NCBI RefSeq assembly: GCF_022548875.1
Contig: NZ_JAKZEW010000002.1
Span: 62,898-126,897, forward strand
Direction of reading: 5' to 3'
DNA length: 64,000 nucleotides
From: Glycomyces sp. L485
GTDB taxonomy: Bacteria > Actinomycetota > Actinomycetes > Mycobacteriales > Micromonosporaceae
The position numbers and the translations under genes are program-made. Positions 34,631-44,460 of the stretch are shown piece after piece. Each line of letters begins with the position of its first letter. The first letter of the stretch is position 1. The notes under the pieces are model-generated. The model made no database searches. It worked only from the letters and a program-made list of their open reading frames with translations, and was not told the DNA's origin.

Positions 34631-35197
34631 ATGACGGCCAAGACACATCCTGTCCTGAAACACCCGATCGAGGGCCCGGCCCCGGGCGCCTCCGAGATCG
34701 CCTACTTCGGCATGGGCTGCTTCTGGGGGGCGGAGCGCCTGTTCTGGCAGACGCCGGGTGTGTGGACGACCTCGGTCGGCTATATGGGAGGCGACACGGA
34801 GAATCCGACGTACGAAGAGGTCTGTACCGGCCTGACCGGCCACGCCGAGGCCGTCAGGGTCGTCTTCGACCCCGAGCAGGTCTCCTACGAGACCCTCCTC
34901 AAGGTGTTCTTCGAGAACCACGACCCGACGCAGGGCATGCGGCAGGGCAACGACATCGGCTCGCAGTACCGGTCGGTCGTCTTCACGACCACGCCCGAGC
35001 AGAAGGAGATCGCCGAGGCCATGAAGAAGGCCTTCGAGCCGGTCGTGCGCGACGCCGGACTCGGCTCGGTCACGACCTCGATCGTCCCGGCCGGCCCTTA
35101 CTGGCTCGCCGAGGACTACCACCAGCAGTATCTGCACCGCAACCCGAACGGCTACTGCAACCACGGCCCGAACGGCCTGTCAATATGTAGTCTATGA
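34631..35197 (+). CDS. msrA: peptide methionine sulfoxide reductase MsrA, hybrid C-terminus
   Basis: 188 aa. Reduces Met-S-sulfoxide in proteins. The catalytic GCFWGAE motif follows YFGMG, and the substrate pocket residues are present ([20 protein letters not shown]). The normal end of this protein (NGLSCPVGVVKAQVEVEPPS) lies 9.1 kb away at 44300-44365. A mobile element has inserted after the codons for NGL and supplies a new ending, SICSL. A Cys is thereby kept, shifted by one residue. The TGA stop overlaps the integrase ATG. Confidence 0.9.
35171..35181. other. attL core
   Basis: AACGGCCTGTC within the msrA codons for N-G-L-S, 13 bases before the integrase ATG. Identical to the attR core; the preceding bases CC also match with one mismatch between. 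Confidence 0.85.
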
Positions 35198-36654
35198 CAA
35201 TCTCGGGAATCTACGTCCGCATCTCCCAGGACCGCGGCGGCGCCGGCCTCGGCGTCGCACGCCAAGAGGAAGACTGCCGCGCCCTGTGCGAACGCAAAGG
35301 CTGGGCCGTCGCCGAGGTCTACGTCGACAACGACACCTCCGCCTACTCTGGCGCACCCCGCCCAGCATGGCAACGTCTGATAGCCGACTCAGAGGCCGGC
35401 GCCGTCGACGCCGTGGTCTGCTGGCACGTCGACCGGCTCACCCGCACACCTCGCGAACTCGAGGACGTGATCGACCTCGCCGACCGCCTCGGGTTGCAAC
35501 TCGGCACCGTCGCCGGCGACATCGACCTGGCGACGCCCACGGGCCGGATGGTCGCCCGGATGCTCGGCGCCGCCGCCCGCCACGAGAGCGAGCACAAAGC
35601 CGAACGGCAGCGCCGCGAGCACCAGCAGCGCGCCGAGGCAGGGAAGTTCTCCGGCGGCGGCCACCGGCCCTTCGGATACACCCGCATCTACGACACCACC
35701 GACCCCGACCGGCCCCGCCGATTCGTCCGCGACGAGATCAACGACGACGAGGCCGCCATCGTGCGCGAGGCCGCCGCCCGCGCCCTCACCGGTGAGACCC
35801 TGTCGTCGATCTGCAGGGAACTCAAGGCCCGGGACGTCAAGACCAGCGCCGGGAACCACTTCATGCCCCACACGCTCCGGCTCGTGCTGTGCTCGGCCCG
35901 GATCTCCGGACGCCGCGAGCATAAGCCGCGCGACTCCTACCAGGGGACGCGCCCTATCCTCGGCCAGATCGTCGCCGAGGCGGTGTGGCCTGCGATCATC
36001 ACACCCGAGGACTCAGACGCCCTCAGAGCCACACTCACGCGCCCAGAGCGGCGGAAGCACTCCGGTCCCACCGGGAGGAAATACATGCTGTCAGGCATCC
36101 TGCGGTGCGGTAAATGCGGTCACCAGATGTCGAACCGGCCCCGCAGCGGCACCCCCCGGTACGTGTGCCCCAACCTCCCCGGAGGAAAGTCCTGCGGTGG
36201 GACGGCCACCAACGGCGCCAAGACCGACGAGCTGATTCGCGACATGGTGCTGGAGGCCCTGGCCTCCCCCAACCTCGCCGAGCGGCTCCAACAGCGAGGC
36301 GCGCCCAATGATGGCCTCGCCGAGCGCATTCGGACCGCCGAGGACCGCGCCGACGAGTTGGCCGCCGATTGGGCCGCGGGCGAGATCACCCGCTCAGAGT
36401 GGCGCACCGCGAAAGACGTACTGGACAAGCAGTTGGAACGGGACCGGGAAACGCTCGCGAGGTCGACCCAGACCAGGGCGTTGAACGGATTCCTCGGGGT
36501 CACACCGGGACAGATACGGCTGCGGTGGGACGGGCTCGGGACGGGGCAGCGGACGGCAGTGGTCGCCGCTGTCGTTGAGCGGATCATCGTGCATCCGGCG
36601 AACCCTCGCAAGCGCTGGGACCCCGACCGGTTCGAGATCGTCTGGCGGGCCTAA
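35194..36654 (+). CDS. large serine recombinase (integrase)
   Basis: 486 aa. N-terminal resolvase domain with catalytic Ser in [12 protein letters not shown] and the conserved [11 protein letters not shown], then [20 protein letters not shown]. Next is the recombinase domain (about 160-270), a zinc ribbon ([14 protein letters not shown], then [14 protein letters not shown]) and a C-terminal coiled coil. It catalyses attP x attB recombination without host factors. Its ATG overlaps the hybrid msrA stop, so in the integrated state it is translated from the msrA transcript. In the excised circle its upstream DNA would come from the element's right end. Confidence 0.9.
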
Positions 36655-37239
36655 CTCGGCGTCTTCCCAACCTTCGTCAACTTCGTCGTCGCCGGAGTAG
36701 AAGTGGACGACCATCCGGCCTTTCCTACTTCGCTCGGCGTCCGAACCCTTGCGGCTGTAGGTGTAGTCGACTTGGCCGTCTCCGTCGACGCTGATCGTGA
36801 CGTTGAACGGCCACGCCTCCCGCCACGTCAGGTTCCGTACCGCATCCTCCACCGGGTCGTCGAGCTCGTAAGGCCGATTGTCGGCGATGAACCGCCGCAC
36901 GCGGGACCGGTCGCCGTAGCCGGCTAGCGGCGTCTCGCCATGAGCCCAGCGCCAAGCCACCAGCCACGGCACCACCTTGTGCTCTGTGAGCCACACTCCC
37001 CCTTCAGTCTCCTCGGCAGGCAGCAGCAGCGTCATAGGCGAGACGTTGAGCGCTACAGCCAAGGCCATCAGGTCGTCGACGTCGCAGCGCCTTGTGCCCG
37101 CCTCCATCTTGGTGATGCCCGACGGCAGGATCGGATGCCCGATCTCTGACAGCGTGGCCGACAGCGATCGAACCGTGTGTTCCCGGCGCTTCCGCCACTT
37201 CAGCAGGTTGACACCTAGCGATTCTGAGACTGTTTGCAT
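36394..37239 (-). CDS. XRE-family transcriptional regulator
   Basis: 281 aa. Helix-turn-helix at the N-terminus (LKWRKRREHTVRSLSATLSE, then SGITKMEAGTRRCDVDDLMA), followed by a ~150-residue domain (VVPWLVAWRWAHGETPLAGY, then WPFNVTISVDGDGQVDYTYS). Likely the element's repressor, facing away from the rep/capsid genes. The frame continues antisense through the last 261 bases of the integrase gene; the final ~85 residues are Pro/Arg-rich and may be a by-product of the missing stop. Confidence 0.75.
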   Translation of the reverse strand: MQTVSESLGVNLLKWRKRREHTVRSLSATLSEIGHPILPSGITKMEAGTRRCDVDDLMALAVALNVSPMTLLLPAEETEGGVWLTEHKVVPWLVAWRWAHGETPLAGYGDRSRVRRFIADNRPYELDDPVEDAVRNLTWREAWPFNVTISVDGDGQVDYTYSRKGSDAERSRKGRMVVHFYSGDDEVDEGWEDAELGPPDDLEPVGVPALARVRRMHDDPLNDSGDHCRPLPRPEPVPPQPYLSRCDPEESVQRPGLGRPRERFPVPFQLLVQYVFRGAPL

Positions 37240-37342
37240 ATTGGCACCTTAAGCCACTGTTGACGAACATACAACCCCGGTGTAGATTCCTCGCGAGACC
37301 ACATGTTTGCGAATTGGATCAGATGAACCGAGGAAAAAACAG

Positions 37343-37537
37343 ATGAGCGTCGATTGCGAACCCACGATCAAAGAGCGCGTAGCCGCCTCACGAGCTGCGC
37401 AAGGGCTTCCCCCGGTCATCACCGATCCCGCCGCCATCGAACGTGTTGCCGCGATCCTGCTCGCCGCAGAGGCGGCCGACGGCAACCGCGCCGACGCAGC
37501 GGGACCGCCATCGTGCGGCGGCCCGCGCTGGCCATAG
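37343..37537 (+). CDS. small element protein, 64 aa
   Basis: Starts at ATG 37343, preceded by GAGGAAA. TIKERVAASRAAQGLPPVIT is followed by AAIERVAAILLAAEAADG. Short helical proteins of this kind often precede replication genes in actinobacterial integrative elements. No function known. It is divergent from the XRE gene, so the ~100 bases between are probably the control region. Confidence 0.55.
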   Translation: MSVDCEPTIKERVAASRAAQGLPPVITDPAAIERVAAILLAAEAADGNRADAAGPPSCGGPRWP

Positions 37538-37547
37538 GGCGGCGGCA

Positions 37548-38456
37548 GTGGGTTACATCCTGTTCCGGGAAGTCCGCGACCACGCACCGACCGACCTAAG
37601 TCAAAGCGAGATGGTGGTGCTCTTGGTGCTCGCCGACTGCGCGAACGAAAACACCAGGGAGGCGTACCCCGGCATGGAGACGCTCGCGCGGTGGTGCCGA
37701 CTCAAGCCCGACAGCGTCGGCAAGGCTCTGAAGCGACTTGCTGCGCGCGGGCTGGAACTACGCGTCCAGCGAGGTGTGAACAGTCGTGGCGAGCCGCTCT
37801 ATGCCGTCAAAGGTCGACAGACCACGTACCGAATTCCCGAGTTCGTATGCCCGGACGATGATCCGGGCATCATGCCCGGATCATCATCCGGGCATACGAA
37901 CAATGCCCGGACCACCGTCCGCCAAAGCCCGGATGATCATCCGCCTATGCCCGGATCATCATCCGGCCCTTCTCCTCATGAACCCTCAGAACCCTCAGAC
38001 GATCACCGGCCGTCGCGCACCTCCGGGACGCACGCCTTCGTCCGCGATCCGAGATCTAGCTACCGCAATGGTGTTGCCGGGGTGTGCCTGGAGTGTGGGA
38101 TGCCGGAGTCACACAGCAACCACGGCAAGGGGAGGGGGGTAGGTGATGACTGGTCGCTCTCGCGTGCGCCCGCACGCCTTCGAAGACGACGCCGAGCTAC
38201 AGGACCCGTACGTCCCCTGCGACCGTCGAGACGACGGCCCGCGCCGCTGGTGCGCTCGCTGCGGCCTTCCCGGCGAACCAGGCGACGCCCGGCACCCACC
38301 CGACGCCGAGGACGCACAGCGGCGACACGAGGACTTCCTGGCCGCCGCCGCCGAGGTCGACCGACGCCGGACCGGCGAACACTGAGCGCCACTGCAAGAG
38401 GACTCAACGGTGCCGACCGAAGCTCAATGCACCTGGTCACGCACACCGAACGATGA
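37548..38456 (+). CDS. winged-helix protein, replication-initiator-like, with intragenic iterons
   Basis: Open frame of 302 aa. Start GTG 37548 gives GYILFREVRDHAPTDLSQSE then MVVLLVLADCANENTREAYP and METLARWCRLKPDSVGKALK, an HTH_36-type winged helix as in phage replication proteins. The middle part (CPDDDPGIMPGSSSG) is encoded by palindromic repeats. A zinc-knuckle-like VCLECGMPESHSNHGKG follows. After a G6 run at about 38131-38137 the frame turns Arg-rich. One extra G would end the protein at a TGA overlapping the next gene's ATG, near 38146. Confidence 0.65.
   Translation: MGYILFREVRDHAPTDLSQSEMVVLLVLADCANENTREAYPGMETLARWCRLKPDSVGKALKRLAARGLELRVQRGVNSRGEPLYAVKGRQTTYRIPEFVCPDDDPGIMPGSSSGHTNNARTTVRQSPDDHPPMPGSSSGPSPHEPSEPSDDHRPSRTSGTHAFVRDPRSSYRNGVAGVCLECGMPESHSNHGKGRGVGDDWSLSRAPARLRRRRRATGPVRPLRPSRRRPAPLVRSLRPSRRTRRRPAPTRRRGRTAATRGLPGRRRRGRPTPDRRTLSATARGLNGADRSSMHLVTHTER
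37842..37966. repeat. five palindromic iterons inside the winged-helix gene
   Basis: Units of about 20-24 bases with core ATGCCCGGAtsATCATCCGG begin at 37847, 37872, 37903, about 37925 and 37947. Each unit is itself a dyad. The first two are arranged head to head in a 59-base near-perfect palindrome (37842-37900, one mismatch per 29-base arm, centre 37871). Multiple dyad iterons within a replication-protein gene recall the lambda O/ori arrangement, so this is a candidate origin of the element. Confidence 0.75.
38146..38385 (+). CDS. small zinc-ribbon-like element protein, 79 aa
   Basis: PYVPCDRRDDGPRRWCARCG is followed by LPGEPGDARH and a charged helix. A Cys, a CxxC pair and a His could bind zinc. 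ATG 38146 follows GGGGTAGGTG. Probably translated right after the winged-helix protein. Function unknown. Confidence 0.5.
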   Translation: MTGRSRVRPHAFEDDAELQDPYVPCDRRDDGPRRWCARCGLPGEPGDARHPPDAEDAQRRHEDFLAAAAEVDRRRTGEH

Positions 38457-38619
38457 AGCGAGCGTTCGTCACTCTCCGTTGATTGGGGAGGGGACACCTA
38501 AATCTCTGGGCGGGGGGCTGTCGACCGCGCGGGGGTGAGGCAGCGAACTCTTTGACAAAACTCCCGGATTTCTCCCAAGACCCGCCGTCACGTTCCGTAA
38601 TCGATGATTGGAGATCTTC
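38386..38619. other. non-coding tract with cos-like G-rich block (38485-38535)
   Basis: Between the small zinc-ribbon gene and the next gene lies a strongly strand-asymmetric stretch: GGGGAGGGGACACCTAAATC (from 38485), then GGGCGGGGGG, then GCGCGGGGGTGAGG. Similar GGGG-rich, CTAAATCT-containing blocks occur near the cos site ahead of the packaging genes in cos phages of Gram-positive bacteria. Here it sits ahead of the capsid module although no terminase is encoded. Confidence 0.4.
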
Positions 38620-38835
38620 ATGTCTCAAGAACTACCGGATTGGCTACGATCCGAGGCTGAGGAGTTCATCGCCGAGATCCCTAAGGACGAGCAAGCTTCG
38701 GCGCGGGCGATCCTCGATGCCGGCGAGTTCACCGTGGAGTCGTGGACCACGCCCAACGGCACCGAGGCGATCGCGCTCGACCTCGGCGACGCGGAACTAT
38801 GGACTTGTCCGCCCGATGACGTAGCATCGTCATAA
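38620..38835 (+). CDS. small element protein, 71 aa
   Basis: MSQELPDWLRSEAEEFIAEI, then a compact domain with SWTTPNGTEAIALDLGDAEL. ATG 38620 has GGAG six bases upstream. Acidic, soluble, no family recognised. It precedes the capsid gene by 127 bases. Confidence 0.55.
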   Translation: MSQELPDWLRSEAEEFIAEIPKDEQASARAILDAGEFTVESWTTPNGTEAIALDLGDAELWTCPPDDVASS

Positions 38836-38962
38836 CGCGGCTGTCGCAACCCGACCCCGGCTGGTCGGCTCTGCGGCCCGCGCAGTTGATCTCGTCCCGG
38901 CTGGCGAGCAGCAATCCCGAACCGTCGTTCGGCGCTGCTGTGCGCCAGACCAGGAGACACCG

Positions 38963-40360
38963 ATGCCCAAGCAAGACCGACGCCAGCGCGTCGGCACCCA
39001 AGACGAGACCACTCGCACGAAGTGGCTCCGCGCCACCCACCAGGCCGAAACCCTCGAGCTCGGCCAGGCCTCCGTTCGCAGCTTCCAACAGGAGCGCCAC
39101 GCCCGCGGAGAGCGGGCGCGCAGCATCCTCGACGGCGCCCACGCCGACGGCCGGGAGCTGACACCGTCCGAAGAGCGCGACTTCGACCAGGCAATGGACG
39201 ACGTCGATGAACTCAAAGCACTCATCGGCGGGGAGGAAGCCGCACGCGACCGGGCGCGCTCCGACTTCGCGGGTACCACGGACCGCGCTGGCGAGGCCGG
39301 CTTTCGCTTCCGCCTGGCCGACGGCCGGGAAATCCCCGGCGTGCGGCACGGCGAGTCCTTCGCCGCCGCGCTCGGCCACGAACGCCGCTCTCTGCCGGTC
39401 GTCGGCGGCAACGACGGTGGCGGATCGCTGGATCTAGGCCGTTCGATCATGGCCGTGATCAACGGCGAGCAGCCCATCATCGAGTCCGCACAACGCGCTC
39501 AGTCGATCTCCAATGACCCATCGGGCGGGTACCTGACCAGTCCGCAGATGTCGAGCCTGTTCATCGACCTCGCCCGTTCACGGTCGATCATGTCGGCCGC
39601 CGGCGCTATCACGGTGCCGCTGAACGGCCCCGAGACGCGGATTCTGCGGGTCACTCAGGACCCGGTCGCGGCGTTCAAGGCCGAGCTCGCGCAGTTGACC
39701 GAGACCGACATGAAGTTCGGGCTGGTCGTGCTGTACCCCAAGACACTCGGCGCCGTGATCACGGTGTCCGAGGAGCTCGCGGCCGACGGGCAGAACGCCG
39801 GCCGCATCATCCAGGAGACGCTCGCGCAGTCGGTCGCGAACCAGCTCGACCGGGCGTTCTTCCGCGGCATCGGCACCATCGAGGGCCAGGAGTTCTCCGG
39901 CGTCCTTGACGACCCCGATGTGAACGTCGTGGACCTTTCCGGCGCCGCGCCAACGTCGTTCGATGAGGTTGTCGACGCGATCCAGCTCGTGCGCGACGCC
40001 AACGGCGAGCCGGTCGTGCGGATCGATTCGCCGCGGACCGCGGGCCAGTACGCCAAGCTCGCCGATACGACGGGCCAGCCGTTGCAGCCGCCGGCCGAGG
40101 TTGCCGCGCTTCGGCACCTGGTGTCGACACAGACGCCGGTCGACCTCGGCACCGGGTCCGACGAGTCGGTTTCGGTCGTCGGCAACTTCGGCTCGGCGTT
40201 CGTGATGCTCGGCATCCGCTCGTCGTTCCGAGTGGAGGTGTCCCCCTACGCCGGGGACGCGTTCGAAACCTTCGCGCGCAAAGTCCGGATCGTCGGCCGC
40301 GTCGACCTGGCCATCGGCCGGCCCTCGCACCTGTCGCTCGTCGAGAACATCGGAGTCTGA
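38963..40360 (+). CDS. HK97-fold phage major capsid protein
   Basis: 465 aa. An N-terminal helical segment of about 110 residues (QERHARGERARSILDGAHAD, then TPSEERDFDQAMDDVDELKA) resembles the scaffolding delta region. The capsid domain contains SNDPSGGYLTSPQMSSLFID, a P-domain helix, FFRGIGTIEGQEFSGVLDDP and a C-terminal VEVSPYAGDAFETFARKVRI. This is typical of HK97-type major capsid proteins. No separate protease or portal gene is present, so maturation and packaging would depend on a helper phage, or the shell has another use. Confidence 0.9.
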   Translation: MPKQDRRQRVGTQDETTRTKWLRATHQAETLELGQASVRSFQQERHARGERARSILDGAHADGRELTPSEERDFDQAMDDVDELKALIGGEEAARDRARSDFAGTTDRAGEAGFRFRLADGREIPGVRHGESFAAALGHERRSLPVVGGNDGGGSLDLGRSIMAVINGEQPIIESAQRAQSISNDPSGGYLTSPQMSSLFIDLARSRSIMSAAGAITVPLNGPETRILRVTQDPVAAFKAELAQLTETDMKFGLVVLYPKTLGAVITVSEELAADGQNAGRIIQETLAQSVANQLDRAFFRGIGTIEGQEFSGVLDDPDVNVVDLSGAAPTSFDEVVDAIQLVRDANGEPVVRIDSPRTAGQYAKLADTTGQPLQPPAEVAALRHLVSTQTPVDLGTGSDESVSVVGNFGSAFVMLGIRSSFRVEVSPYAGDAFETFARKVRIVGRVDLAIGRPSHLSLVENIGV

Positions 40361-40361
40361 G

Positions 40362-40742
40362 ATGACCAGAGTGACCTTCAACCGCAACTACCGCAGGGCT
40401 AAGGACAACCTGGCCGCCCGCAAGGGTGAGACGGTCGAGGTGCCCCAGGGCGTCGCGGCCTACCTGGCCGACCACGGCTACGCCGATCCCGAGGAGTCGG
40501 CGAGAGTGAAGCGCCGCGGCAAGTCCAAGCGGGCCGTGACATCCGCCGAGGACGCCGAGGACGAGCGCCCCGAGCCGACCGCCCGAAAGGCGGACTGGGT
40601 CCGCTGGGTGGCCGAGCAGCACGGTCTCGACGTCGAGCAGGCCAAGCAGATGACCCGCCGCGACCTCATAGCCGTCGATGCCGCCGCCGAGGACCCCGAC
40701 GGCGACGACGAGGGCCATGCCGACGACACCGACCAGACCTAA
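40362..40742 (+). CDS. small phage head-type protein with HeH/LEM-like end
   Basis: 126 aa, starting one base after the capsid stop. The N-terminus (VTFNRNYRRAKDNLAARKGE, then VEVPQGVAAYLADHGYAD) is like small proteins found just after capsid genes in actinophages. The C-terminus WVRWVAEQHGLDVEQAKQMT, then RRDLIAVD, resembles a helix-extended-helix (HeH/LEM) motif. Acidic tail. Likely a head or connector accessory. Confidence 0.65.
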   Translation: MTRVTFNRNYRRAKDNLAARKGETVEVPQGVAAYLADHGYADPEESARVKRRGKSKRAVTSAEDAEDERPEPTARKADWVRWVAEQHGLDVEQAKQMTRRDLIAVDAAAEDPDGDDEGHADDTDQT

Positions 40743-40745
40743 CCA

Positions 40746-41492
40746 ATGCACACGACGGATGCCGCCGCAGTCGGCGACGGGATCGAGGCAGGGAGCGGCC
40801 GGTGGAACTTCGCCGGCCGCGCCGCCGAGCACTTCGACGCCCACGTACACAAGAGCGTCCCCGGCTACGCCGACGGCCACCGCCTAGTCCTCGAGCTGTC
40901 CGACTGGTTCGTCGGCCCCGACAGCACCGTGTACGACCTGGGCTGTGCCACCGGGGCGCTACTCGCCGCGCTGGCCGAGCGGCACGCCGACCTTGCCGCC
41001 CGGTTCATCGGCGTCGACGTCGAACCGGACATGGTCGCCGCGGCACGCTCCCGCACCGCTCACCTGCCCACGGTGGAGGTCCGGCACGCCGACGCCGCAG
41101 CGATGACATGGGAGGCCGCCGACCTGGTCGTCGGCTGCTACACGCTCCAGTTCCTGCCGTCCGACCAGCGCGGGGCGCTCGTCGAGCGGATACACCGCGT
41201 CCTGAGGCCCGGCGGCGCCCTGGTGCTGTTCGAGAAGGTGCTCGCCCCAGACGCCCGATTGCAGGACATCGCTTCGGCCCTGTACGTCGAGCACAAGCTG
41301 TCGGCCGGCTTCACCCCGGCCGAGATCGTCGGCAAGGCCCGCAGCCTCAAGCGGATACTCACCCCGTGGCCGACTGGCCGGCATGTCGAGACGCTGCACG
41401 CGGCTGGCTTCCCGCACGTGATGACGATCTACAAGAACATCTCCTTCGAAGGCTTCCTAGCGATCAAGGAGGGACCGTGCGCCGCATCGTGA
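40746..41492 (+). CDS. CmoA-like class I methyltransferase
   Basis: 248 aa. SAM motif I VYDLGCATGALLAAL, motif II acid in GVDVEPDM. It also has blocks specific to carboxy-SAM synthase CmoA: FDAHVHKSVPGYADGH at the start, CYTLQFLPSDQRGALVERIH, LRPGGALVLFEKV, and the C-terminal HAAGFPHVMTIYKNISFEGF. CmoA makes carboxy-SAM from SAM and prephenate. A member on a mobile element, without CmoB, suggests a different use such as a nucleic-acid or protein modification. Three bases after the head-type gene, in one operon with the CheR-like gene. Confidence 0.75.
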   Translation: MHTTDAAAVGDGIEAGSGRWNFAGRAAEHFDAHVHKSVPGYADGHRLVLELSDWFVGPDSTVYDLGCATGALLAALAERHADLAARFIGVDVEPDMVAAARSRTAHLPTVEVRHADAAAMTWEAADLVVGCYTLQFLPSDQRGALVERIHRVLRPGGALVLFEKVLAPDARLQDIASALYVEHKLSAGFTPAEIVGKARSLKRILTPWPTGRHVETLHAAGFPHVMTIYKNISFEGFLAIKEGPCAAS

Positions 41493-42106
41493 CCGAGTGG
41501 TTCCGCGTCCCGCGCGTCTGGCCGCACGTCGAGAAGCACCTGGCCGGACTCGATCGGCCACTGGTCGTGTGGTCCGGTGGTTGCGGCACCGGCGAGGAGC
41601 CGTACTCGGCCGCGATCATGCTCGAGGAGCTCGGCATACCCGGCCGCGTCGTCGCGACCGATCTTGACGAGCAGCTGCTCGCCATCGCCCGCCAAGGCGA
41701 GTACAGCCGCCGCAACATCACGCTCAACCTGGACGAGCGCCGACTGACCACCCAGCAGGTCGGCCAGTACTTCGACTATGCCGATGGCCGGTACACGGTG
41801 CGGGCGGAGATCCGACAGCGCGTCGACTTCGCCGTTGGCGCGCTGGGCACCGACCAGCCGCCACAGTGCGATGTGGCGTTCGTGCGCAACGTGTGGCGAC
41901 ACCTCGGCGCGGCCGTACAGCGGCGCCTAGCCGCCCAAGTGCACGAATGCCTCCCGGCCGATGGTCTTCTGTTGCTCGGCGGCGGGGACCTCATGACGCA
42001 GGACCCAATAACGCTGGAGCTGAAGGAAATCGAACCGGCCGGCCTGTCGCAGTACTTCGCCGAATCACGTGAGCATGAGCTGATCTGGCGCCCGCGCGAG
42101 GGATAG
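41477..42106 (+). CDS. CheR-like methyltransferase
   Basis: 209 aa. WSGGCGTGEEPYSAAIMLEE and VATDLDEQLLAIARQGEYSR are the SAM-binding blocks of CheR-type enzymes, followed by RVDFAVGALGTDQPPQCDVA, FVRNVWRHLGAAVQRRLAAQ and GLLLLGGGDLM. The N-terminal receptor-binding domain of true CheR is missing, and no chemotaxis gene is near. GTG 41477 with AAGGAGGG a few bases upstream, overlapping the CmoA-like gene by 16 bases. The pair probably acts together. Confidence 0.75.
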   Translation: MRRIVTEWFRVPRVWPHVEKHLAGLDRPLVVWSGGCGTGEEPYSAAIMLEELGIPGRVVATDLDEQLLAIARQGEYSRRNITLNLDERRLTTQQVGQYFDYADGRYTVRAEIRQRVDFAVGALGTDQPPQCDVAFVRNVWRHLGAAVQRRLAAQVHECLPADGLLLLGGGDLMTQDPITLELKEIEPAGLSQYFAESREHELIWRPREG

Positions 42107-42151
42107 CAGAAAGGCCAGGCCGCTTCGGGTGGGACCGTTGCGACCTGGCCG

Positions 42152-42177
42152 CTCTCGGCATCTGTGCACGCCGAGAG
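42152..42177. terminator. terminator hairpin after the methyltransferases
   Basis: CTCTCGGC and GCCGAGAG form an 8-bp stem around a 10-base loop, between the CheR-like gene and a convergent small gene. A GGCCAGG/CCTGGCC pairing lies just before it. Confidence 0.55.
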
Positions 42178-42186
42178 ATCTGAATC

Positions 42187-42456
42187 TTACTTGTAGCGGC
42201 GAACGAGCAGGAGCTGTACTTCGGCGACGAGCTTGCCGCGTACCGCCGGCGCGAGGTGAGCCCGCCACGACTCAGACCAGTCGACCTGGAGACCGCGGCC
42301 GGCGTTATGGCGGATGGTGAGCACCTGGTCGGTCTGCTCGACGGTCCGGGCCGGCCGGTAGGCCACAGTCGCGGTGGCTTTGTCGAAGGTGACTTCGAAT
42401 CGGAACCCGAGCCGCGGCTGTTCTCTGACGAGGACTTCGACAGTCGTCACGGTCAC
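42187..42456 (-). CDS. small element protein, 89 aa
   Basis: Beta-rich protein: TTVEVLVREQPRLGFRFEVT, FDKATATVAYRPARTVEQTD. Start GTG 42456 with GGGGAG eight bases upstream; it overlaps the preceding stop (GTGA). No family recognised. Confidence 0.5.
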   Translation of the reverse strand: MTVTTVEVLVREQPRLGFRFEVTFDKATATVAYRPARTVEQTDQVLTIRHNAGRGLQVDWSESWRAHLAPAVRGKLVAEVQLLLVRRYK

Positions 42457-42668
42457 CGGTCGAACTCCCCGCAGTCCTTGACTTCGGCGTCGGGGCACGG
42501 CCACGCGAGGTGGCAGGACTGGCAGATGGGGCCGTTCCGCATCGCCTCAGTGCAGCGGGGGCAGTCGCACCGACCCCAGGCGGGAACGTGGAAGGCCGCT
42601 TCCATCCGTCGGCGTCGCTCGGCTTCGGTCTCTGGCGGCTTGCCGCCGCGGGTCGATAGGGTTTGCAT
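42453..42668 (-). CDS. small Cys-rich, zinc-finger-like protein, 71 aa
   Basis: GRCDCPRCTEAMRNGPICQS followed by CHLAWPCPD gives two CxxC-type pairs, likely one zinc site. N-terminal half basic and helical. ATG 42668 with GGAG seven bases upstream. Divergent from the GntR-type gene. Confidence 0.55.
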   Translation of the reverse strand: MQTLSTRGGKPPETEAERRRRMEAAFHVPAWGRCDCPRCTEAMRNGPICQSCHLAWPCPDAEVKDCGEFDR

Positions 42669-42759
42669 GTCTCGACTCCAATTCAGTCGGGGCCACGCTC
42701 CGGGGCCGTGTCAGCGGTCGCCGGAGCCTTCGTCTGCAGCCTAAAGCTACTTGTCATAT

Positions 42760-42772
42760 ACGTCAATGACGT
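42760..42772. promoter_or_regulatory. palindromic operator candidate
   Basis: ACGTCAATGACGT is a dyad around one central A. The half-site TGACGT recurs at about 42794. It lies in the divergent intergenic region between the Cys-rich gene and the GntR-type gene, which probably binds it. Confidence 0.55.
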
Positions 42773-42824
42773 CACAAACGTAAAGATTGATTACTGACGT
42801 TCAGGAGTTGCCTAACGTGAGGCC

Positions 42825-43094
42825 ATGACCGCCGACCCGGATGGCCGAATCGACGAGATGTCGCCCGAGCCGCTCTATCGCCAGCTCGCCGCGATCCTGC
42901 GCGCCCGAATCGAGCGTGGCGACTGGCAGCCACGCACACCGATCCCGAGCGAGTCACAACTCGTCGATGCCTACGGCGTGTCCCGGCCGACCGTCCGCCA
43001 CGCCGTCGCCGTCCTGGTCGACGAGGGCCTGGTGGTCACCATCCCTCAGCGCGGCAGCTTCGTAGTCGGCCAGGACACCGCCGCGGCCGACTGA
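42825..43094 (+). CDS. GntR-type winged-helix regulator (DNA-binding domain only)
   Basis: 89 aa. PLYRQLAAILRARIERGDWQ, then IPSESQLVDAYGVSRPTVRH and AVLVDEGLVVTIPQRGSFVV is a complete GntR DNA-binding domain with no effector domain. Such short GntR (KorSA-like) proteins control transfer or maintenance genes of actinobacterial integrative elements. Confidence 0.8.
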   Translation: MTADPDGRIDEMSPEPLYRQLAAILRARIERGDWQPRTPIPSESQLVDAYGVSRPTVRHAVAVLVDEGLVVTIPQRGSFVVGQDTAAAD

Positions 43095-43125
43095 GAGGCG
43101 ACGCTAGGCCGCCCCTCAGCGGGCG

Positions 43126-43749
43126 TCAGGTTTCCTTGCGGGCCTTGTGGATCGCCAGTAGGGCCAGTGCGCCGACGGTCACCAGGCCGTCGACAGCGAT
43201 GGGGCCGAGGTGGGCCGAGAGGACGTCCTCGCCCCAGTAGGCCAGCAAGCCGGCCATGTGCTTGTAGGAGACGACAGCGGCAACGACGGCAACCGCGCCG
43301 ACGCCAGCGAACCTGATGAGGCTGTAGCCGATCGAGGCCGGCCAGCGGACGCGCGCCATAACTTCGATGGCGACGACGAGGGCGATAGGCCAAAACGCCG
43401 CGCCGGCCACCTGCGGCACGGACCCGCCCCCGTTGCCGATCACGAGCACGGTGTGGAGGATGTTCGCACCGACCGAGGCGCCGACCCCGAGGGCCAGCGC
43501 GAGCCAGGCGGTAGCCGCGGCGCCGCGCGGCTGTGCCGCGGCATGCCGCCCGGCGTCGGCCGGCTGCTCGGCGGCGGGGGAGTTGTCGCCCGCAGCATCT
43601 TCGGCGCGGACCTCGGCGATTCGGTCGCGGCCCCACCGTTCGGAGCGTCCGAACTCGGCGGCCAGTTTCGCGCCCGTGAAGGCCGCGCCGGCGGCCACGG
43701 ATTGCCGGTACGCCTCGCGGGCAGCCGCGCGCTGCTCGGCCGCGCTCAT
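43126..43749 (-). CDS. DUF2637 family membrane protein
   Basis: 207 aa. An N-terminal helix-turn-helix-like segment (AAGAAFTGAKLAAEFGRSER) leads to four membrane helices beginning AWLALALGVGASVGANILHT. SYKHMAGLLAYWGEDVLSAH, then LGPIAVDGLVTVGALALLAI is the DUF2637 signature. These proteins are found on integrative elements and plasmids of actinobacteria, often next to transfer/spread genes. ATG overlaps the stop of the gene upstream. Confidence 0.75.
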   Translation of the reverse strand: MSAAEQRAAAREAYRQSVAAGAAFTGAKLAAEFGRSERWGRDRIAEVRAEDAAGDNSPAAEQPADAGRHAAAQPRGAAATAWLALALGVGASVGANILHTVLVIGNGGGSVPQVAGAAFWPIALVVAIEVMARVRWPASIGYSLIRFAGVGAVAVVAAVVSYKHMAGLLAYWGEDVLSAHLGPIAVDGLVTVGALALLAIHKARKET

Positions 43750-44195
43750 GCCGAGGCTCCGGCGCCGAGCTGTGCGCGGAGCCGCGCGACTTCCGCTAGG
43801 GCCTCGTCGCGCTCGGTAGCGACCTGGTCGAAGGCCGAGAAGATCTTTGCGGACAACTGCAGCGCCCGCTGTACGCGTCCCGAGGCGCGGCCGGACACCT
43901 CGCCGCCGACGTCGCCGTCGTCGTATTGGTCGTCTCCGCGCTCGGGATTCTCGTCGCGCGGCCCTGTCGCCTCGTCAAGTTCGGGTCGGGCCTGGCCGGT
44001 GGCGGCGTAGACGTGCCGCTTCCATTCGGCGGCGAGCGAGGCGGGGATGTCGTCGTCGTCGTGGCCGTCCGCGAATGCCGCGGTGGCGGACCAGCCGCAC
44101 TCGCAGTCGAGCGTGACCGTGCCGTCGGCGGCGTTGTAGCGGTCTTCGGCCTCGTGGTCGTAGGAGGCGGGGTGGCCGTTGTCTAGAGTGATCAT
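43746..44195 (-). CDS. element protein with zinc-ribbon-like start and coiled coil
   Basis: 149 aa. MITLDNGHPASYDHEAEDRY, then LDCECGWSATAAFADGHDDD with a CxC pair, a linker rich in Asp and Gly, and a C-terminal coiled coil (ALQLSAKIFSAFDQVATERD, EALAEVARLRAQL). ATG 44195 with GAGG ten bases upstream. Co-translated with the DUF2637 gene. Confidence 0.6.
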   Translation of the reverse strand: MITLDNGHPASYDHEAEDRYNAADGTVTLDCECGWSATAAFADGHDDDDIPASLAAEWKRHVYAATGQARPELDEATGPRDENPERGDDQYDDGDVGGEVSGRASGRVQRALQLSAKIFSAFDQVATERDEALAEVARLRAQLGAGASA

Positions 44196-44219
44196 GGTCG
44201 GAACCTCGTTTTCCGTCAA

Positions 44220-44253
44220 GGCCCTGGTCTGGTGTTGCATCACCACCAGGGCC
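44220..44253. terminator. hairpin near the element's right end
   Basis: GGCCCTGGT and ACCAGGGCC form a 9-bp stem that can extend by a GGTG/CACC pair after a 2-base bulge. It lies between the rightmost element gene and attR. Confidence 0.5.
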
Positions 44254-44299
44254 GTTCCGTACCCGGCAAATCAACCGGATACATAACCTTGACATGGTT

Positions 44300-44365
44300 C
44301 CCAACGGCCTGTCGTGCCCTGTCGGCGTCGTCAAGGCGCAGGTGGAGGTCGAGCCGCCGAGCTAG
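44300..44365 (+). pseudogene. msrA: displaced native 3' end of msrA
   Basis: Reads PNGLSCPVGVVKAQVEVEPPS and a TAG stop, in the frame that would continue the msrA codons before the element. It contains the Cys of the SCPVG motif typical of this MsrA type. Without the element it is the normal end of the gene. Confidence 0.9.
44303..44313. other. attR core
   Basis: AACGGCCTGTC, identical to attL. It is preceded inside the element by TTGACA (44289-44294), a possible -35 box. Confidence 0.85.
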
Positions 44366-44460
44366 CGCCGGACTCAGGATCACGGTGTTCGCGCCGACCG
44401 CCGACGCGGCCGTGTACATCATCGACTCGGACCTCATATCCTGATATGAAGTCCATATCG

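Follow-up and report, generated by a model that had tools for sequence, protein, structure and literature searches.

Integrated element and its gene content

The window analysed here, a 64,000-nucleotide stretch of the genome of Glycomyces sp. L485, contains an integrated element of 9,132 bp (35182..44313, including one copy of an 11-bp core). The core, AACGGCCTGTC, is located at 35171–35181 and again at 44303–44313. Joining of the flanks restores the C-terminus of MsrA, and the restored protein aligns with all five same-genus MsrA proteins examined (selected from 21 other genomes with a match), although two of these five differ from it over roughly the final dozen residues. This comparison supports the borders of the element as real. 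The insertion in the 3' end of msrA (35160–35200 and 44292–44366) exchanges the C-terminal residues of MsrA for four others.

Fifteen ORFs of the element were scanned with Pfam and eight with PHROGs. The gene for a large serine integrase (35194..36654, plus strand) matched the Pfam families Resolvase (4.2e-32), Recombinase (6.2e-11), and Zn_ribbon_recom (1.8e-9) as well as phrog_95, integrase (5.9e-99). An HTH regulator-like protein is encoded at 36394..37239 on the minus strand, divergently from the initiator-like gene described below (phrog_11503, HTH DNA binding protein, 1.1e-14; Pfam HTH_3 below the cut-off). Downstream of the latter are plus-strand genes for an HK97-type major capsid protein (38963..40360; Phage_capsid, 2.8e-25), a head-tail connector-like protein (40362..40742; phrog_2322, 1.2e-9), and a short GntR-type regulator (42825..43094; Pfam GntR, 5.5e-19), and a minus-strand gene for a DUF2637 protein (43126..43749; 2.6e-5), a family also encoded beside HTH_36 genes in loci L143 and L144. 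Two methyltransferase-type proteins are also encoded within the element. The 15 ORFs scanned with Pfam and the eight scanned with PHROGs included no helicase, helicase loader, or primase, and no terminase, portal, protease, HNH, or FtsK-type translocase was detected among the scanned ORFs. The frames of the integrase, initiator, and capsid genes are open, and both att cores are intact. The host assembly contained no second or extrachromosomal copy of the element.

Winged-helix initiator-like gene

The initiator-like gene (37548..38142, the latter being a probable end; plus strand) has a GTG start. Its product matched Pfam HTH_36 (5.1e-13), the sole Pfam match at E values up to 0.1; a RepA_N domain was absent. 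Among the PHROGs profiles, it matched phrog_1032, replication initiation protein (6.9e-10), and three families named replication initiation O-like (3.1e-9 to 4.7e-7). The original prediction, made from the letters of the window, located the repeats described below in a winged-helix gene whose product resembles replication initiators, and the HTH_36 and O-like matches agree with this assignment.

The reading frame remains open to 38456. Beyond approximately 38142, the open frame displays no gene-like position-specific GC content, and an overlapping frame at 38143–38382 looks coding; the end part of the frame 37548–38456 is probably non-coding in that frame. The next ORF (38143–38385), whose frame overlaps that of the initiator, contains a CxxCGLP motif resembling the CxxCGMP motif close to the initiator's end.

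The single-sequence AF2 model of the initiator was poor, with a mean pLDDT of 49.4. In this weak model, residues 19–89 have the order HHH-EE, as in a winged helix, and the pLDDT values are low in the stretch encoded by the repeats (below 50 for residues 70–120). A PDB sequence search yielded a single irrelevant match (E 0.39). Neither the initiator nor the capsid protein had a confirmed close relative in searches of genome and viral contigs with peptide patterns. Because the initiator protein diverges fast, the search was moved to the Pfam family and to distant tblastn matches.

Repeat array within the initiator gene

A repeat search revealed five copies of a 19-nt unit starting at 37847, 37872, 37903, 37925, and 37947, i.e. 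with start-to-start spacings of 25, 31, 22, and 22. The identity of these copies to the reference copy is 84, 100, 84, 89, and 100%, respectively. The half-site ATGCCCGGA/TCCGGGCAT, with at most one mismatch, occurs seven times: five copies are direct (plus strand, 37847, 37872, 37903, 37925 with one mismatch, and 37947) and two are inverted (minus strand, 37862 and 37887). The order of the array is dyad, dyad, half-site, half-site, partial dyad. Namely, iterons 1 (37847..37870) and 2 (37872..37895) are full 24-nt dyads; iterons 3 (37903..37921) and 4 (37925..37943, 22 bp after iteron 3) are partial copies on the plus strand; and iteron 5 (37947..37966, plus strand, 22 bp after iteron 4) is a partial dyad. 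The five copies originally predicted were thus recovered, but the half-site scan does not make full dyads of them all. Both full dyads are included in a near-palindrome at 37841..37901, the 30-nt arms of which are 97% complementary, with one mismatch, and are centred around 37871 on a single nucleotide. The prediction of a palindrome with one mismatch holds, but its length is 61 nt rather than 59.

The repeat score in the 300 bp following the winged-helix domain was 81, as compared to means of 8.5 for synonymous and 2.7 for codon shuffles; this value was reached by none of 300 shuffles of either type. None of the spacings is divisible by three, and the copies consequently start in different reading frames. 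Taken together, the different frames and the result of the synonymous shuffles identify the repeats as a DNA signal. The repeats are confirmed as real and far beyond chance.

A search of the 4.4-Mb host assembly for the unit with up to three mismatches gave eight matches, seven of which were located within 37847–37965. The eighth has three mismatches, and a reversed control pattern also yields one match. A genome-wide repeat family is therefore ruled out; in this assembly, the iteron is unique to the initiator locus.

The GC content across the array is 0.58–0.64 (50-base steps) and 0.60 directly after it, with the nearby minimum of 0.52 located upstream, at 37800–37849. No AT-rich unwinding tract was found beside the iterons (GC 0.60 over 37940–38009), and no DnaA box with up to one mismatch was present anywhere in the initiator gene. 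The array is followed by a C-rich tract with repeated GAACCCTCA (37970..37999, plus strand), which includes GAACCCTCAGAACCCTCA at 37980–37997; the GC skew over 37940–38009 is −0.47, a strong C bias. Some relatives have an AACC module in this place, and the tract is a candidate melting or loading site.

Survey of HTH_36 genes

Matches to HTH_36 above the cut-off were present in 156 of 298 genomes of the order. The sample comprised the matches listed from the top down to 39.0 bits (43 including the studied gene, namely 41 genes in 40 regions, L047, and the studied gene), the gene of pPaSha2, L050, and L051, i.e. 46 in total. Three genes were excluded, L050 and L051 because they had been read in the wrong orientation and L105 because its frame is truncated; the remaining 43 genes had been picked without regard to repeats. 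The controls were 448 segments from the longest open frames (at least 450 nt) of L070–L110; these are other open frames of the same loci rather than verified genes. Values of z were calculated for the 300 bp that follow the winged helix, relative to synonymous shuffles.

The original prediction proposed looking for the same layout in related elements. It was indeed found: a z of at least 3 was obtained for 29 of the 43 HTH_36 genes, including the studied one, versus 21 of 448 controls. Further down these HTH_36 genes, in the following 300 bp, this value was reached in one of 24. The repeats differ in sequence from gene to gene, yet occupy the same place. Clusters were also counted, since many of the 43 genes are related. 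At 55% identity, these genes, four out-group genes, and lambda O formed 17 clusters, 12 of which, that of lambda O among them, have a member whose score was reached by at most one of 300 shuffles. With lambda excluded, the count is 11 of 16, including the cluster of the studied gene. The five clusters without an array are those of L073, L075, L079, L089, and L127. In locus L093 (G144:C5), two HTH_36 genes are separated by approximately 6 kb and differ markedly in their iterons; the top raw repeat score of all 43 genes (140) belongs to the second.

Nine-mers matching at an offset of 22 were detected in 27 of 43 HTH_36 genes and in five of 448 controls. The corresponding numbers for offset 21, a multiple of three, were 17 of 43 and 27 of 448, and offset 24 was found in six of the 43 genes. 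Spacings in the controls peak at 18, 21, 24, and 27, as those of protein repeats do. Summed over clusters, the offsets gave 141 at 22 versus 39 at 21 and 46 at 23. A 22-bp unit shifts the frame at each step, and selection must therefore act on the DNA. The order of dyad, dyad, half-site, half-site, dyad is common to the studied gene (with the last one partial), L070, and L085, the sequences of which are wholly different; in L070 and L085, the 22-bp-phased half-sites are in direct orientation.

Two further marks were recorded in tests set up after the sequences had been inspected. Perfect DnaA boxes after the winged helix were present in 12 of 43 HTH_36 genes versus five of 448 controls; these 12 genes belong to three clusters, one of which includes nine. 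When one mismatch was permitted, the counts were 13 of 43 and 19 of 448. The module AACC-N-TC-AACC, a motif defined post hoc, occurred in 16 of 43 genes (four clusters, the studied gene included) versus one of 448 controls. It is read in one frame (E-P-S) in several carriers, where it may be a protein motif, and in another frame in L085.

Iterons of the TGTCA/TGACA type averaged 2.8 copies in 19 genes sharing one helix pattern and 0.5 in the other 24, in a comparison for which the pattern was chosen post hoc, kin were counted separately, and the helix of L070 was cut wrongly. A pairing of the recognition helix with these iterons is only a lead. The iterons of L143 are GGGTGAC with one inverted GTCACCC, and those of L095 are GGGCGAC/GGGCGGC with GTCGCCC. 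The base change between the two loci is identical in all four copies (three direct and one inverted) and, judged from these sequences, looks like a concerted change of the iteron.

Out-group, circular, and capsid-bearing relatives

The distant tblastn search for similarity to the initiator matched seven records, five of which were used; two further Piscirickettsia plasmids were left out. Four out-group genes were picked by similarity of the winged helix. Arrays with a score reached by none of 300 shuffles were identified in three of them, from a gut phage, a Microcystis phage, and a Thermaerobacter plasmid. The short gene of a Piscirickettsia plasmid has no array (34 of 300 shuffles reach its score). 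The Thermaerobacter plasmid gene adjoins a parB gene. This plasmid carries a second replication-related gene and is, therefore, no proof on its own.

The nearest relative in this search (37.6% over 101 residues) is encoded in pPaSha2, a circular 41.9-kb phage-like record, the incomplete gene table of which names no other initiator. By eye, the frame of this initiator (L070, 12001–13131) seems to shift after the iterons; the gene is missing from the PLSDB table. Locus L094 is a 13,170-bp contig with an HTH_36 initiator gene and a serine integrase. It is probably circular, since it ends in a 95-bp terminal direct repeat, as circular molecules do when assembled. An FtsK-like protein was also recognized in L094 by eye. 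The circular relatives L094, pPaSha2, and the Thermaerobacter plasmid lend only indirect support to the proposed autonomous replication of the studied element after excision.

Distant relatives of the capsid protein were found in nine other genomes, in three of which an HTH_36 gene is located within about 4 kb. An HTH_36 initiator, a DUF2637-like gene (assigned by eye in L095), and an HK97-type capsid gene co-occur in L143 (6110–15603), L144 (1245–10730), and L095 (7635–12772). The L143 and L144 elements also encode a serine integrase, with a portal in L143 and a prohead protease in L144. As judged from gene content, these three elements possibly represent a family of small tail-less capsid-bearing elements.

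Arrays are weak in the initiator genes of these three elements, the scores of which were reached by 21 (L143), 100 (L144), and 73 (L095) of 300 shuffles. This counts against a universal array. Loss of the repeats in relatives that still replicate had been named at the outset as evidence that would speak against an origin, and the weak arrays may bear on this in part. Strong arrays, with scores reached by none of 300 shuffles, are present in L146 and L147. A second, weaker HTH_36 match in L143 has no array (145 of 300 shuffles).

Comparison with known systems

A close parallel is gene O of phage lambda, for which an in-gene iteron origin has been described (PMC7466680). The iterons are located mid-gene in both cases: the four annotated lambda iterons occupy 39034–39118 within O (38686–39585) and begin 348 bp into the gene, as compared to 299 bp in the studied gene. 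A stretch of lambda O, hand-set from codon 91, gave a z of 7.9 in the same shuffle test. The two proteins share 16% identity in an alignment, and the lambda iteron starts are 20, 24, and 23 bp apart versus 22 in the studied array. An AT-rich tract adjoins the lambda iterons (PMC7466680); it has no counterpart in the studied gene, where the sequence is C-rich with AACC repeats at a GC content of about 0.60, and this is the clearest anatomical difference between the two. Also, no loader similar to lambda P was found among the scanned ORFs of the element; the host may supply one.

In the staphylococcal RepA_N plasmid pSK41, the origin is located centrally in the rep gene, the N-terminal domain binds four Rep boxes, and the part of the protein encoded by the origin is a deletable linker (PMC5703833). 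The domain in the studied gene is HTH_36 instead of RepA_N, and no primase-interaction domain was identified in it. The authors of a study on the mycobacterial RepA phages Miko and Rachaly suspected that, as in lambda, the origin is either contained in repA or precedes it; the regions that they inspected are reported to lack repeated motifs, and these phages carry parABS instead of an integration cassette (PMC7157519). Plasmid Rep proteins with HTH_36 have been named (PMC3832669, PMC4224046, PMC4913263), and HTH_36 proteins are known from phage replication regions (PMC8951638). For the Paracoccus plasmids of this type, the repeats are reported to be close to the start of rep or upstream of it rather than within the gene (PMC3832669). 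The portions of these four papers considered here describe no in-gene iterons.

With regard to its gene content, the element resembles capsid-forming PICIs, with which candidate PICIs and phiRv-like elements of mycobacteria were grouped for comparison, in possessing an integrase and a major capsid gene. Capsid-forming PICIs also carry portal, protease, terminase, and HNH genes (PMC10690885), which were not found in the scanned ORFs of the studied element, and PICI origins are located 3' of rep, not inside it (PMC6092414). Actinomycete elements of the pSAM2 type (AICEs) possess an integrase and their own replication initiator and replicate autonomously after excision (PMC3218068). They differ from the studied element by an FtsK-type transfer gene, not found among its scanned ORFs, and HTH_36 is absent from the Rep models given for AICEs in the relevant part of that paper.

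Interpretation of the array

We consider it very probable that the 9.1-kb element has its replication origin at 37841–38000, inside its initiator gene. This is the best reading of the DNA-level array, the initiator family matches, the excess of arrays in the survey, the 22-bp spacing, the DnaA boxes of relatives, and the response of lambda O to the same test. The lack of an AT-rich stretch, of a DnaA box, and of a loader among the scanned ORFs, as well as the three weak capsid-bearing relatives, speak against it. The parallel with lambda O drawn in the original prediction is supported insofar as the repeats act at the DNA level, relatives often share the 22-bp phasing, and lambda O responds alike.

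By analogy with lambda and pSK41, the N-terminal winged helix would bind the dyads and half-sites. A distance of 22 bp corresponds to about two helical turns, so that bound subunits would be placed on one face and the DNA would be wrapped. Wrapping may open the adjacent C-rich tract (37970–37999) and allow the host helicase to enter. In the protein, the stretch that the iterons encode would be tolerated as a flexible linker. A circle would be excised from msrA by the serine integrase and then multiplied from the origin, and the capsid genes would serve transfer of the element.

Among the alternatives, the best placed, although improbable, is that the array is a former origin and the studied copy a decayed remnant; its odds overlap with those of the preferred explanation, since both read the array as an origin. 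Copies 3–5 are partial, no DnaA box is present, and the reading frame continues beyond the likely end of the gene, as expected of a remnant. However, the succession of half-site, half-site, and dyad recurs in L070 and L085, the repeat core is well kept, and neither the att cores nor the integrase, initiator, and capsid frames show damage.

Dyads bound by winged-helix proteins are commonly operators. The repeats could accordingly serve the initiator-like protein in repressing or otherwise regulating its own operon from inside the gene, with no function as an origin. A roadblock could act at sites downstream of the start, and one binding site can serve both uses. Nevertheless, the family matches are to replication initiators, an excess of DnaA boxes accompanies the arrays of some relatives, and lambda O, a proven origin, shares the layout. 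Moreover, the arrays are located mid-gene, and the sole promoter-like site found in 37000–39000 starts at 37260. We regard a purely regulatory role as quite unlikely.

It is more unlikely still that the array functions through hairpins of RNA or DNA, such as an attenuator, a cruciform, or a terminator-like structure. The region 37835–37975, folded as DNA, does form a strong structure (−53.5 kcal/mol, z −11.5), but the relatives L070 and L085 keep direct, 22-bp-phased half-sites, a hairpin does not need fixed phasing of direct copies, and a terminator scan gave no site at the array.

A low-complexity protein linker grown by slippage is hardly credible and, as the whole explanation for the studied gene, is refuted by the different frames of the copies and by the synonymous shuffles, and across the 43 genes the commonest spacing is 22 rather than one of the control values, even though the low pLDDT of the encoded stretch (in a model that is weak throughout) resembles that of disordered linkers and 21-bp spacings do occur in 17 genes.

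Implications for HTH_36 initiators

Origins within the gene of the initiator are no novelty as such: lambdoid phages and pSK41 have them, and for mycobacterial RepA phages one has been suspected. In a limited literature search, we found no description of in-gene iteron arrays of HTH_36 initiators, and the 22-bp-phased layout across these initiators looks new. With an origin within the initiator gene as the preferred reading of the studied locus, we lean, with some reserve, towards a broader view, in which replicons with an HTH_36 initiator, whether in phages, plasmids, or satellite-like elements and irrespective of phylum, belong to a single class that has the origin inside the initiator gene. 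These origins would consist of 22-bp-phased dyads and half-sites, some with a DnaA box and some with an AACC module replacing the AT-rich tract. The iteron would diverge together with the recognition helix, making each element a private replicon, and tail-less capsid-bearing actinobacterial elements would be among the carriers.

A 22-bp period inside HTH_36 genes, unlike the product of any protein repeat, offers a means of finding origins from sequence alone and ties small unannotated elements to self-replication. The pairing of recognition helix and iteron becomes directly testable, since natural variants exist. Finally, the array suggests that a 9-kb capsid-bearing element may own its replicon, which bears on the possibility of satellite life without a helper.
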